DNA of 36,976 nucleotides, taken from contig JAAYKJ010000063.1 in the NCBI GenBank assembly GCA_012522505.1, forward strand, positions 1 to 36,976, given 5' to 3'. Position numbers and translations under genes: made by a program. Below, one piece after another: positions 3,304 to 31,872 of this stretch (position 1 is the stretch's first letter; each line of letters opens with the position of its first letter). This DNA is from Clostridiaceae bacterium. Lineage in GTDB: Bacteria > Bacillota > Clostridia > DSM-8532. The notes beneath the pieces are model-generated. The model saw only the letters and a list, made by a program, of their open reading frames with translations. It was not told where the DNA came from and did not search any database.

Positions 3304-3339
3304 GAATATCCCATTTCGATGTGAGGAGTGTGTTTTTTA

Positions 3340-4389
3340 ATGGATACAGCGGATTTGTTGAAGCAATTGTGTGCTGTGAATGCCATGACAGGTTTTGAAC
3401 ACAGGGCATGTGATTCAATTAAGAATTTTTTTGAACCCTATAGTGATAAATCCTGGATCGATTGCTTTTTTAATGTGATTGGGTATAGGAAGGGATTGTC
3501 TGAGAACCCTAAAAAGATCATGATTACGGCGCATTATGACCAGATCGGTATGATCGTTACGGGTTTTGAAAGCAATGGCTTCCTTCGGGTGTCCAACCTG
3601 GGCGGCATCGATACAAAAGCGGTGCTGGCCAGCGAAGTGACAGTTCATGGGAAAGAGGATCTATATGGCATCATTGGCGCCAAACCTCCGCACCTGTTAA
3701 CCGAAAAAGAAACCCAAAAAAATGTAAAGCTGAAAGAACTGTTCATCGATACCGGGCTTCCTGATGCTACCCTGAAAGAGAAAGTTTCAGTGGGCGATCC
3801 TGTTTCTATAATATCCCCTGTTGTTTCCATGGAAAATGGATGCATCATGGGCAGGAGCCTGGATAACCGGGCTGGTGTGGCAGCGCTGATAAAAATTTTG
3901 GAACAGATGAAGATGATCAAGCATGAACACGACATTTACGTGGTTGCCACGGTTCAGGAAGAATCAGGCTTGCTTGGGGCGATCACCTCGTCTTGGGATT
4001 TGACTCCGGATATCGCCATCGTCATCGATGTGTGCCACGGGGATATGCCCGAAGCCGATAAATCCCAATGCTTTCCGCTTGGAAAGGGTGTTCCGGTAGG
4101 CATAGGCCCAGCTTTTCACCGGCCTGAAACGAAGGTGCTGCTTGATGTGGCAAAGAATGAGAGAATTCCCACACAGCTTTGCATAGAACCCGGGAATCCG
4201 GGCACCGAAGCCTGGGCAATTCAGATCTCCAGGACGGGTATCCCCACATTGGAGGTATCCATTCCGTTGCGATACATGCACACGGGCGCAGAACTGATAT
4301 GCATTAAGGATATAGAGATGGCAGCCGCGCTGGTGGCCCATTATTCGGCCAGAAAAGCCGGTGAGACGTTGAATGGAGAGAACCAGTAA
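3340..4389 (+). CDS. M42 family metallo-aminopeptidase, copy 1 (divergent)
   Basis: M42 peptidases are cytosolic di-metal aminopeptidases that usually assemble into large tetrahedral particles and trim peptides. All expected metal or catalytic positions are visible: His65 and Asp67 (AHYDQIG), Asp175 (LDNRAG), Glu207/Glu208 (VQEESG), Asp230 (VID) and His314 (RYMHT). The usual AHMDE is altered to AHYDQ, and the usual GGNDA is replaced by GNPGTEA. This is the most divergent of the three tandem paralogs. An ATG at 3340 preceded by GAGGAG is preferred to the GTG at 3328, which overlaps that site, giving 349 aa. Whether it is glutamyl-, leucyl- or other-specific cannot be told. Confidence 0.9.
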   Translation: MDTADLLKQLCAVNAMTGFEHRACDSIKNFFEPYSDKSWIDCFFNVIGYRKGLSENPKKIMITAHYDQIGMIVTGFESNGFLRVSNLGGIDTKAVLASEVTVHGKEDLYGIIGAKPPHLLTEKETQKNVKLKELFIDTGLPDATLKEKVSVGDPVSIISPVVSMENGCIMGRSLDNRAGVAALIKILEQMKMIKHEHDIYVVATVQEESGLLGAITSSWDLTPDIAIVIDVCHGDMPEADKSQCFPLGKGVPVGIGPAFHRPETKVLLDVAKNERIPTQLCIEPGNPGTEAWAIQISRTGIPTLEVSIPLRYMHTGAELICIKDIEMAAALVAHYSARKAGETLNGENQ

Positions 4390-4530
4390 GCCGGGCTTTT
4401 GTTGTGGTTTTTGGGAACTTGAAAGAACCCATGCCAGAAGAAAGCTTGGTTGAGCCTATTATTGACGCACTTTGCTGCTTAATACCAAGTGGCTTTAGCT
4501 TAAGTGGCGAAATAGGGCAGGAGGATTCGT

Positions 4531-5574
4531 ATGATAGATAAACTTATGGAACTGACAAGATTGGATGGAATATCTGGAGATGAACAGGACGTCCGGAACT
4601 TCATCATTGCTGAGATTAATAAGCAAGAGCTTCAATATCATACAGACAGTATCGGGAACCTGATCGTAAAGGCTAAATCAAGCAGAGAATACGATTTCAA
4701 GGTAATGCTTTCAGCCCATATGGATGAGGTTGGGTTGATGATAAACCAGATTACCGACGATGGAAAACTGAAGTTTGCCACCGTTGGTGGCATGGACACC
4801 CGCATTCTTACTGGACAGCAGGTCCGTATCGGAGACAAAAAAATACCCGGCGTCATCGGATACAAGTCCATTCACCTTCAGGACAAAGCAGAGCGTGATC
4901 GTGTTGTGAAATTGAAGAGCCTTTATATTGATATTGGTGCAAAAGACAAGGAACAAGCTGAAAGCCAGGTTTCTCTGGGCGATTATGCCTCTTTTGCCGG
5001 TGGTGAACCTGTTCTGTTTGGAAACAACAGGCTGAAGGCCAAAGCGCTTGACGACAGAGCCGGATGTCTGATTCAAATGCAGCTATTGAAAGAAGAATGG
5101 CCCTTTGAGCTCTACGCCTGTTTCAGCGTTCAGGAGGAAGTTGGGCTGCGTGGCGCGAGGGTTGCTGCTAACCGGCTTGAACCGGATTTTGCTGTTATTT
5201 TGGAAGGGACCACCTGCGCCGATGTACCCGATGTTAGGGAACACGAGATGTCTACCCAATTTGGAAAAGGCCCTGCCATCTCTTTTGCGGACAGAACCTC
5301 TATCGGGGACAGGGAATTGATCGAACATTTTGTAAATGTGGCTCGCAAGGAAGGGATTCCCTTTCAATGGAAACAAACGGTGTCGGGCGGAAATGACGCT
5401 GGCAGGATTCAGACCTCCGGAACTGGCGTGAAAATCATAACCATTTCGGTCCCGTGCAGGTATATCCATTCTCCAGTATCCTGTCTGGATATAAACGATT
5501 TTGAGAATATGCTGAAACTGGTAAGAAGCGGTTTAAGAAAGCTGCCGCAATTTTTGGGGAGGAATGAAGGATGA
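4531..5574 (+). CDS. M42 family metallo-aminopeptidase, copy 2
   Basis: A second M42 paralog of 347 aa. The ligands are His63 and Asp65 (AHMDEVG), Asp174 (LDDRAG), Glu202/Glu203 (VQEEVGLRGA) and His313 (RYIHS). The fourth position is Glu225 (LEGT), where the flanking copies have Asp. AGGAGG lies 6 bp before the ATG. Its last bases overlap the start of the next gene (ATGA), so the two are very likely co-translated. In M42 proteins an Asp or Glu at that metal position marks different subfamilies, so substrate preference may differ between the copies. Function as a cytosolic aminopeptidase is inferred from the family. Confidence 0.93.
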   Translation: MIDKLMELTRLDGISGDEQDVRNFIIAEINKQELQYHTDSIGNLIVKAKSSREYDFKVMLSAHMDEVGLMINQITDDGKLKFATVGGMDTRILTGQQVRIGDKKIPGVIGYKSIHLQDKAERDRVVKLKSLYIDIGAKDKEQAESQVSLGDYASFAGGEPVLFGNNRLKAKALDDRAGCLIQMQLLKEEWPFELYACFSVQEEVGLRGARVAANRLEPDFAVILEGTTCADVPDVREHEMSTQFGKGPAISFADRTSIGDRELIEHFVNVARKEGIPFQWKQTVSGGNDAGRIQTSGTGVKIITISVPCRYIHSPVSCLDINDFENMLKLVRSGLRKLPQFLGRNEG

Positions 5575-6554
5575 TCAATTTAATAAAAGAGTTGACCAAT
5601 GCTTATGGGCCGTCCGGACAGGAAGAAGTAATCCGCAGCCTGATTCAAAAACGAATTGCTTCAAAGGTGGATGAAATGTACACCGATACGCTGGGAAACC
5701 TGATTGCTGTAAAGAAGGGTCCTGGCAAGAGGATTATGCTGGCTGCCCATATGGATGAGATCGGGCTTATTGCAACCTTCGTCGATGAAAAGGGTTTTAT
5801 TCGTTTTTCCAACAGTGGAGGGGTCAGTCCCTTCATTGCTGCCGGGCAGAGGGTGATCTTCCGAAACGGAACGATTGGAATGGTTTGTTATGAAGAAAAC
5901 CTTGAAGACATGAAGGACTTGAAAATGAACCGGATGTATATCGATATTGGAACAAAGAACCGGGAAGAAACCGAAAGATTAGTTAACCCGGGGGATATGT
6001 CTGTTTTTGTCGGAGAGGCACTGGAACAGAACAACAGATATATCTCAAAGGCTTTGGATGATCGGATTGGTTGTGCCATCCTGATCGCACTTATCGAGAG
6101 AATGGGCAGCACTGAGAACGAGATAGTCTTTGTCTTTACTGTTCAGGAGGAGGTTGGGCTTCGCGGTGCAGGTCCGGCCGCATATGGTATAAAACCCGAT
6201 CTGGCGATCGCGGTGGACGTTACAAATACAGGTGACACACCAGATTGTAAGCCCTTGGCAATTGATTTGGGAAAAGGTCCTGCCATCATGGTAAAGGATA
6301 ACCGAACCATCTCCCATCCATTGGTGAAGGATGCATTGGTAGAATGTGCCCAACAAGAAAATATTCCCTATCAGATGGAGGTTCTTAATGTGGGCGGCAA
6401 CGACGCAGGTGCGATTCACATTACAGCAGGAGGAATTCCCTCTGGAGGTGTATCCATTCCTTGCCGATATCTGCACCGACCCTGTGAGATGGTGGATAAG
6501 AACGATGTAGAAAATACAATAAGACTATTGGAAGCCTTTATTAAACGGCCTTAA
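5571..6554 (+). CDS. M42 family metallo-aminopeptidase, copy 3
   Basis: A third M42 paralog of 327 aa, starting inside the stop of copy 2 (ATGA at 5571-5574). The ligands are His60 and Asp62 (AHMDEIG), Asp163 (LDDRIG), Glu193/Glu194 (VQEEVGLRGA), Asp216 (VDVT) and His302 (RYLHR). This is the most canonical of the three. Related M42 proteins are annotated as glutamyl aminopeptidase or, historically, as endoglucanase; the peptidase role is the supported one. The stop codon overlaps the stop of the convergent membrane-protein gene, so no terminator can lie between them. Confidence 0.94.
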   Translation: MINLIKELTNAYGPSGQEEVIRSLIQKRIASKVDEMYTDTLGNLIAVKKGPGKRIMLAAHMDEIGLIATFVDEKGFIRFSNSGGVSPFIAAGQRVIFRNGTIGMVCYEENLEDMKDLKMNRMYIDIGTKNREETERLVNPGDMSVFVGEALEQNNRYISKALDDRIGCAILIALIERMGSTENEIVFVFTVQEEVGLRGAGPAAYGIKPDLAIAVDVTNTGDTPDCKPLAIDLGKGPAIMVKDNRTISHPLVKDALVECAQQENIPYQMEVLNVGGNDAGAIHITAGGIPSGGVSIPCRYLHRPCEMVDKNDVENTIRLLEAFIKRP

Positions 6555-30032: not shown

Positions 30033-30212
30033 ATGCAACCTGTAAAGATGGAGCATCCCAACGAAGGAATAAAATGCGTTGTCAACAGCTGCTACTACTA
30101 TATGATCGGTGATAAATGCGCAGCAGAAAAGATAGAAGTGCATCCAAGGAACGCAAACAGCGTAGAAGAAACCGACTGTGCAACGTTTAAACCGGAGAAT
30201 GAGATTCGATAA
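30033..30212 (+). CDS. DUF1540 domain small cysteine protein
   Basis: This 59-aa protein has the DUF1540 pattern of four spaced cysteines (15, 20, 29 and 49), with NSCYYY, DKCAAEKIEVHP and DCATF segments. Members are small Firmicutes proteins thought to bind a metal; their role is not known. AAAGGAGG lies 7 bp before the ATG at 30033; an in-frame upstream start at 29961 has no such signal. An AGGAG/CTCCT hairpin follows near 30219-30247 without a clear T-run. Confidence 0.88.
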   Translation: MQPVKMEHPNEGIKCVVNSCYYYMIGDKCAAEKIEVHPRNANSVEETDCATFKPENEIR

Positions 30213-30417: not shown

Positions 30418-30446
30418 TTGAAACCACAAAATTCATATGATATGAT
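30418..30446 (+). promoter_or_regulatory. Promoter of the PP2C-like/LysM gene
   Basis: TTGAAA (30418-30423) and TATGAT (30441-30446) are separated by 17 bp. The start would lie near 30453, about 43 nt before the ATG. Confidence 0.6.
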
Positions 30447-30495
30447 GGTTTAAGAAGGAATATCCAAAACATGTCGAATGAAGGAGAATTCCATT

Positions 30496-31833
30496 ATGAG
30501 TGAGATATTAAAGGTAAATGCGTGTGTTTATTCACGCAAAGGAAACAAAAGCGAAGTTAATTGTGATGATTTCTATATGAATGGTAAATTCTTATCGGAA
30601 CATCATCTCGACAATATGGAAGCAGCTTTGGAGAACCGAGGAGTAGAGTTTTTCTTTGCGGTAGCCGATCATATGGAATACTCCGATGAGGAACAGAGGG
30701 CTAGTTTTTCAATTCTCCGGGAAATCGGCAAATTCCATGAAAAAATTACCGTACATGAAGGTGATTCGGGTTTTAAGACCAAAGAGTTATCTTCCAGGGT
30801 TACAGAAACAGCCAAGTATCTTGAGAGCTTTATGGATATGAACAAAATACCGGAGGAGGATCCTGCCAGAAGCATGGGCTTTTCCGGGTTGCTTCTGACC
30901 GAAGGAAAGGCCTTTGGCGCCACATTTGGAACCGGGCATATCTATTTCTGCCGTGGAAATAGCTTCAAGCATATTTCTGCCGAACGGGCACAGCCCAAAA
31001 GGCTCGTAGAGCTGGGAATTATTTCGGATGATGAAGTGGATGATTTCCAGGAAAAATACAGCATTAGCGAAGAAGACTCTCAGATCGTTCCGATCACAGA
31101 ACCGATAGATGTTCAGGAAGGTGATAAATTTCTCCTGATCAGTGATGGTGTATACAACGCCCTTGGGGAAGAAAACCTTGAAGACATTTTATCGATGCGC
31201 AGTGACAGTACATATATCGCATACCGTGTTATTTCAGAGGCAATGAAGCGCAATTCAGAAGATGATATGACAGCAATGGTGGTGCGGATAGAAAGGGTTA
31301 CCTCGCCGAATGCTGCAGTTGTTAGAAAAGCAGCCGAAAAACCCAAGGCTTCAGCTTTGAAAAGTACACCACCGCCAAAATATAAGTACAACAAAAATGC
31401 AAACCGGAAAAACTTCAGAAAATATGAAAATATTATTTATTACACTGCAGTAGTTTTAACAGCAGTTTTGCTGGTCGTTATCATGTATTTTGTGATTAGT
31501 AATTTATTGAATAAATTGAAAGATACCGAACAGATATCACCAACGCCATCAATTTCGGTATCGGTCTCGCCCGCTCCAACGGAACCATTGGAGATAACCC
31601 CAGAGCCCACACCGGAACCCACACCCACTCAAGCGCCTGTAGCTGAAGTGAAGACTCACAAGGTTGCAAGTGGAGAAACACTATCTTCCATCGCAAGAAA
31701 GTATTACGGTGACAATTGGGTTTATGTGGAGAGATTAGGGATGTATAACCAGATACCGGCACCCTATGACACAATCGTTGTGGACCAGATTCTGAAGATC
31801 CCACCGAAAGAAGAGCTTATGGCCAATGAGTGA
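30496..31833 (+). CDS. PP2C-like phosphatase domain, membrane segment and LysM domain protein
   Basis: This 445-aa protein joins a cytoplasmic PP2C-type domain (about 1-268) to a membrane segment (about 313-336), a Pro/Thr-rich linker (346-382) and an external LysM (about 387-436). PP2C positions include Asp24/Asp25 (NCDDFYMNG), Asp58, Asp217 (LLISDGVYN) and Asp256/Asp257 (DDMTAMVV). The usual DGMGG is instead DHMEY, and the usual GDS is GTG, so activity is uncertain. It may be a weak Ser/Thr phosphatase or a pseudo-phosphatase anchored to the wall by LysM. AAGGAG 9 bp before the ATG at 30496 fixes the start. It is monocistronic with its own promoter and terminator. Confidence 0.82.
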   Translation: MSEILKVNACVYSRKGNKSEVNCDDFYMNGKFLSEHHLDNMEAALENRGVEFFFAVADHMEYSDEEQRASFSILREIGKFHEKITVHEGDSGFKTKELSSRVTETAKYLESFMDMNKIPEEDPARSMGFSGLLLTEGKAFGATFGTGHIYFCRGNSFKHISAERAQPKRLVELGIISDDEVDDFQEKYSISEEDSQIVPITEPIDVQEGDKFLLISDGVYNALGEENLEDILSMRSDSTYIAYRVISEAMKRNSEDDMTAMVVRIERVTSPNAAVVRKAAEKPKASALKSTPPPKYKYNKNANRKNFRKYENIIYYTAVVLTAVLLVVIMYFVISNLLNKLKDTEQISPTPSISVSVSPAPTEPLEITPEPTPEPTPTQAPVAEVKTHKVASGETLSSIARKYYGDNWVYVERLGMYNQIPAPYDTIVVDQILKIPPKEELMANE

Positions 31834-31840
31834 AACAGCA

Positions 31841-31872
31841 AAAGCGGTTTGATTTCAATCAAACCGCTTTTT
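31841..31872. terminator. Terminator after the PP2C-like/LysM gene
   Basis: AAAGCGGTTTGAT (31841-31853) and ATCAAACCGCTTT (31858-31870) form a perfect 13-bp stem with loop TTCA and a T-tail. A shorter T-run on the other strand may also serve the convergent gene. Confidence 0.92.

Follow-up and report, generated by a model that had tools for sequence, protein, structure and literature searches.

A PP2C-fold protein of Clostridia as a possible wall-anchored pseudophosphatase

Does a protein phosphatase fold that is tied to the cell wall, and in which several of the canonical catalytic motifs are altered, still act as an enzyme? This question is raised by a gene at 30496-31833 (+ strand) of the window, the 36,976-nucleotide stretch of DNA from a Clostridiaceae bacterium analysed here. 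The open reading frame encodes 445 amino acids, starts with the ATG at 30496 and is preceded by the ribosome-binding site AAGGAG (30481-30486, +). A second in-frame ATG lies at 30478; we prefer 30496, from which the product begins, like its orthologs, with MS[SDE]. The product consists, on the same strand throughout, of a PP2C-fold domain, residues 1-268 (30496-31299), assigned by profile and PDB sequence matches and by structure comparison; a basic juxtamembrane segment, residues 269-310 (31300-31425), with a Pro..(T/S)YKY(N/S) motif conserved in the ortholog alignment and reading KYKYN in the window protein; a single transmembrane helix at about residues 311-337 (31426-31506), read from the sequence and spanning 307-342 in the model; an extracellular Pro/Thr/Glu-rich linker (31507-31644), recognized in the sequence and the ortholog alignment; and a LysM domain, residues 388-436 (31657-31803). 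Pfam detected the LysM domain, for which peptidoglycan binding is predicted, with E 3e-7 and 30.7 bits, as compared with a cut-off of 20.9. Since the N-terminal side of the helix is rich in Lys and Arg, the established positive-inside rule places the PP2C domain inside and the LysM domain outside. The layout proposed in the preliminary description, a cytoplasmic PP2C-type domain joined through one membrane segment and a Pro/Thr linker to an external LysM, was confirmed by the sequence, Pfam and the models. This architecture and most of the motif changes described below are common to 26 orthologs of the same family with 39-76% identity, and are therefore not due to chance.

Matches of the window protein to phosphatase profiles were weak but specific. 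The Pfam PP2C and SpoIIE models both scored below cut-off, the NCBIfam Stp1 model (NF033484) gave E 7e-14 and 52 bits, short of its cut-off of 230, and the SpoIIE equivalog TIGR02865 gave 13.7 bits, short of 491. Sequence matches of the PP2C domain in the PDB were PppA, tPphA and PstP, and the best structural partners of the predicted models were all PP2C enzymes: PstP 2cm1 aligned over 186 residues with Z 15.8 and rmsd 3.5 (Z 13.3 for the other model), and PppA and tPphA with Z 15.6 each. The two AlphaFold models have a mean pLDDT of 57, because the alignment was shallow (eight sequences), and they are adequate for the fold but too low in confidence for the geometry of the metal site. Residues 1-268 thus have the PP2C/PPM alpha-beta-beta-alpha fold.

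We then compared the catalytic motifs, all on the + strand, with the canonical R..NED, DGxGG, GDS, SDG and DN set in a motif table. Motif I reads NCDD in place of NED and keeps Asp24-Asp25 (30565-30570); DGMGG is replaced by DHMEY at residues 58-62 (30667-30681), with Asp58 kept and Gly59 changed to His; GDS is replaced by GTG at 145-147 (30928-30936), with loss of the third-metal Asp; SDG at 216-218 (31141-31149) keeps Asp217; and DN is represented by Asp256-Asp257 (31261-31266). The window protein therefore departs from the set at S19, C23, H59, T146 and D257, while the four metal-site Asp residues, D24, D58, D217 and D256, are kept. The two substitutions and the retained Asp24/25, Asp217 and Asp256/257 had been correctly noted in the preliminary description, to which Asp58 of DHMEY can be added. 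Among the homologs, none was found with a second, normal DGxGG elsewhere in the fold.

The four Asp residues correspond to the ligands of a SpoIIE-type minimal metal site (residues 610, 628, 746 and 795), and the window protein may accordingly be read as a metal-dependent phosphatase that keeps a SpoIIE-like two-metal site made of Asp24, Asp58, the backbone oxygen of residue 59, Asp217 and Asp256. Only sister lineages would then be dead, and occupancy of the LysM domain would gate the activity. In support of this reading, B. subtilis SpoIIE is active without the conserved Arg of RxxxxD, the M3 Asp, the second glycine of DGxxG and the DN pair (PMC3517971), and tPphA variants at Arg13, including R13S, show reduced but retained activity (PMC3375153). 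The phosphatase domain of SpoIIE, which is also membrane-bound, resembles the window protein in having the equivalents of Asp628, Asp610, Asp746 and Asp795 and in lacking the Arg, the M3 Asp and the DN. It differs, however, in keeping the DG glycine, in having a regulatory domain and no LysM, and in the reversed domain order, with ten N-terminal transmembrane segments (PMC12088040). Because the four Asp residues of SpoIIE are retained, we give residual catalysis in the window protein some weight, but regard it as rather unlikely in the light of the family as a whole.

Some match to the window protein was found in 24 of 36 genera in a first sample of relatives. Almost every genome of the window's own family (f1) has a strong full-length match, G006 and G013 being without a full-length one, and strong matches of this kind also occur in f2, f16, f26, f61, f77, f84, f38 and others of the class Clostridia. 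The 42 sampled PP2C-TM-LysM proteins come from about ten families of this class. When a divergent profile was run against 398 phylum-wide genomes, the full architecture was not found outside the class Clostridia; besides the window genome, only partial matches, either Stp-like or LysM-only, were obtained. The LysM cut-off was passed by representatives of f16, f26, f38, f61, f77, f82 and f84, and by eight of nine scanned members of the clade. The exception, L100 (f2), had a scoring PP2C domain and no LysM listed at E 0.01, although its C-terminal part can be aligned with the LysM domains of other members. The preliminary description had allowed that the architecture might be long described and common; it is common in Clostridia, but we found no description of it in the literature searched.

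In a tree of 60 PP2C domains, 42 fell into one clade with support of 100/99, outside which stood 14 canonical members and four decayed rows. The clade held without the catalytic columns. One doubtful member on a very long branch, L089 (G333), was omitted from the control tree. The clade branches from intact PP2Cs whose genes adjoin those for Ser/Thr kinases and FHA proteins and genes of the EssC or Tad type. Outside it, L072:3269-4876 (G191) encodes a fully intact PP2C with a transmembrane helix and two LysM domains, whose sequence suggests that PP2C and LysM were joined a second time, in an active enzyme; since L072 falls outside the clade, LysM is likely to have been acquired on more than one occasion. 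This coupling of an intact PP2C to a membrane helix and LysM also speaks for retained phosphatase activity in the window protein. We further observed other PP2C-like membrane proteins whose motifs have decayed and whose tails are rich in Pro (L080, L081, L088 (f10), L087 and L043 (f15)); no LysM was seen in them.

All 14 canonical outside members have every residue of the set (R, N[EQ]D, DG, GDS/T, DG and DN). Within the clade, by contrast, the Glu of NED is absent from 42 of 42 members, and the Gly of DGxGG and the Asp of GDS are each lost in 41 of 42, losses of which the first two count against a functioning phosphatase. All four metal-site Asp residues are present in 14 members, the window protein and 13 others, a point in favour of retained activity, and at least one is lost in the other 28; five or more changes of the four-Asp state are needed to explain this distribution. 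Separate decays occurred outside it, in the f10 trio (L080, L081 and L088) and in L087. In the window's subclade of 10 sequences, Asp24, Asp58 and Asp217 are kept in all and Asp256 in nine, whereas all 17 sequences of its sister branch have lost both Asp24 and Asp256.

These losses would also be expected of a decaying remnant without function. This is a very improbable reading, being contradicted by selection: the frames are long and open, the promoter, leader and terminator are conserved, most genomes of the family carry the gene, and whole-protein dN/dS is about 0.07-0.12 in unsaturated pairs. The PP2C domain itself gave dN/dS of about 0.04-0.09 in all usable pairs (pairwise Nei-Gojobori). 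For the window protein and its nearest orthologs, dS was saturated or nearly so, with a non-synonymous distance of 0.12-0.13. Purifying selection was just as strong in the branch that has lost Asp24 and Asp256. Close orthologs that agree in architecture, synteny and leader are thus equally constrained without these two residues, which speaks against phosphatase activity as the conserved role and suggests a shared function independent of catalysis.

Since the fold is strongly conserved despite the decay of the active site, these proteins probably work not as enzymes but as docking platforms attached to the wall. We therefore lean towards the view that the family is a non-catalytic, or pseudophosphatase, PP2C-fold module that sits in the membrane with a tether to peptidoglycan. 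The preliminary description had offered a pseudophosphatase acting as a binding module as one option, beside a possible sensor coupling wall state to phospho-signaling. At the level of the family this stood, given the repeated catalytic loss, the purifying selection on the fold and the lack of an adjacent kinase; the inactivity of the window protein, however, does not follow from its motifs alone, since SpoIIE is active with like losses. A further alternative is that the domain now performs a different chemistry, or binds a small ligand or another metal, and serves as a cytosolic reader for the wall. Residues conserved specifically in the clade (FYxNGxF.SE..DN..S.EN, HEK and RSDS-YIA), none of which is a PP2C active-site residue, fit this idea, and PP2C-fold proteins with other substrates, SidD and Lem3, are reported. 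We consider it improbable, as the motif table contains no new conserved acid/base cluster replacing the metal site across the clade.

The neighbourhood of the genes bears on the origin of the family. As stated in the preliminary description, no partner kinase gene adjoins the window gene. This absence is only local: elsewhere, the window genome carries an intact Stp and a PASTA-type PrkC side by side (L044), and two further kinases. Where flanks were read, a kinase-like open reading frame adjoins 12 of the 14 intact genes but none of the 29 decayed ones (Fisher p 6e-9, a value that ignores kinship, as the contrast comes from a single large clade plus two small decays of separate origin). The nearest intact relatives lie next to a gene for a Ser/Thr kinase, and those checked also lie next to FHA-domain genes, as represented by L074, with an EssC-like neighbour containing two FHA and three FtsK/SpoIIIE stretches, and L042, with an FHA protein and a T2SSE ATPase. 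The neighbours of decayed genes vary from family to family. In their own right, L074:3813-12507, L071 and L042 form clostridial clusters of a PP2C, a Ser/Thr kinase with a DUF5050 or Big_2 tail, and FHA-EssC or FHA/T2SSE genes, with phosphatase and kinase paired next to genes for secretion or pili.

Sequence comparison shows that the family descended from PP2Cs of kinase/FHA operons by stepwise catalytic loss under constraint on the fold. For the pseudophosphatase module preferred here, we propose that the cytoplasmic PP2C domain would bind a phosphoprotein or kinase client without dephosphorylating it, possibly a target of the PrkC/Stp pair of the window genome, and that LysM would set the client complex at a given site of the wall. 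The protein may thus be a wall-positioned adaptor or competitor in Ser/Thr-kinase signaling. The full scheme, in which bacterial PPM/PP2C pseudophosphatases arose from a kinase-operon phosphatase as wall-anchored transmembrane adaptors for such signaling, with decay at many stages and expression tied to Spo0A, is advanced tentatively, as a possibility to which we give a little less than an even chance.

The link to Spo0A comes from the leader of the gene. A sigma-A-like promoter, TTGAAA-17-TATGAT (30418-30446, +), is conserved in close orthologs, and an intrinsic terminator hairpin, AAAAGCGGTTTGA-TTTCAA-TCAAACCGCTTTTT with a T-run (31840-31872, +), directly follows the stop codon; it was read from the sequence and is absent from the scan listing. 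The promoter and similar hairpins recur in most close orthologs. Because it has its own promoter and terminator hairpin, the gene appears to be monocistronic. A DUF1540 small-protein gene lies directly upstream (30033-30212, +) as a separate transcription unit; an operon shared with it or with other neighbours was considered and is unlikely, given the gene's own promoter and terminator and neighbours that face the opposite way or are not conserved.

Between the promoter and the ribosome-binding site, the 5' leader contains TGTCGAA (30472-30478, +), an exact match to the core Spo0A box consensus (PMC3485338). The same sequence occurs exactly at -20 to -24 in 25 of 28 f1/f2 orthologs, with the flanking leader diverged; the box-bearing leaders are those of the window, L005-L028 and L031. 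Shuffling gave an expectation of 0.8 of 59. TGTCGAA before the ribosome-binding site was also considered as a general leader and rejected, as it was no commoner than a reversed control in most genomes, genus g4 being the exception; two g4 genomes without the exact box had only a weaker Spo0A match. Expression is from the gene's own sigma-A-type promoter, and the conserved box suggests that it is probably under Spo0A; a box placed after the transcription start would be compatible with repression. Spo0A was found in most genomes of the family, and the window genome encodes two Spo0A_C-domain proteins (G000:C37 and G000:C136, 155 and 120 bits). Spo0A was not found in G032, although this genome keeps the box, and for this reason the link is only suggestive.

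Known systems share parts of this arrangement. Phosphatases of the PrpC/Stp1/PstP type (NF033484; intact copy G000:C168) have the PP2C fold and the same order of Asp motifs; the window protein scores far below their cut-off, has lost the NED Glu, DGxGG, the GDS Asp and the Arg, adds the transmembrane helix and LysM, and has no PASTA-kinase gene adjoining. PstP with a putative extracellular PASTA domain likewise joins a cytosolic PP2C through a membrane segment to a possible wall-binding domain, but is catalytically intact and has no LysM. The kinase-linked PP2Cs of clostridial FHA/EssC or FHA/Tad clusters (L074, L071 and L042) are the nearest active-looking relatives and share the FYxNG segment; in contrast to the window protein, they have intact catalytic residues, adjoin Pkinase, FHA, FtsK/SpoIIIE (EssC-like) or T2SSE genes, and lack LysM. 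Animals have PPM-family pseudophosphatases that act without catalysis, namely TAB1 and PHLPP2 (PMC12002173). Together with fungal Cyr1, these resemble the window family in a retained PPM fold, loss of metal-site residues in most clade members and a non-catalytic role, here a proposed one, and differ in being eukaryotic, with other partners and domains. A dead-kinase precedent in bacterial wall control is MviN of M. tuberculosis (PMC12599244), which resembles the window protein as a membrane protein with a dead signaling-enzyme domain in wall metabolism and Ser/Thr-kinase signaling, but carries a pseudokinase domain and no LysM.

'LysM' is absent from the main text of a 2025 survey of 3,573 bacterial PP2C sequences (PMC12088040), and searches on PP2C with LysM and on bacterial pseudophosphatases, in a literature that was thin on subscription journals, gave no account of this family. 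If the proposal is true, a conserved PP2C pseudophosphatase that anchors to the wall of bacteria would stand beside the known dead kinases of bacterial wall control and the known PPM pseudophosphatases of eukaryotes, as a case absent from that literature, and annotation of such genes as phosphatases would mislead. Among relatives that share one architecture, the sites range stepwise from SpoIIE-like to completely dismantled, and the family would thus offer a natural test of why a phosphatase fold persists after catalysis has gone. Elsewhere in the window, at 3328-6554 (+), we noticed three tandem related metallo-aminopeptidase-like open reading frames, of the M42 type as judged by eye.
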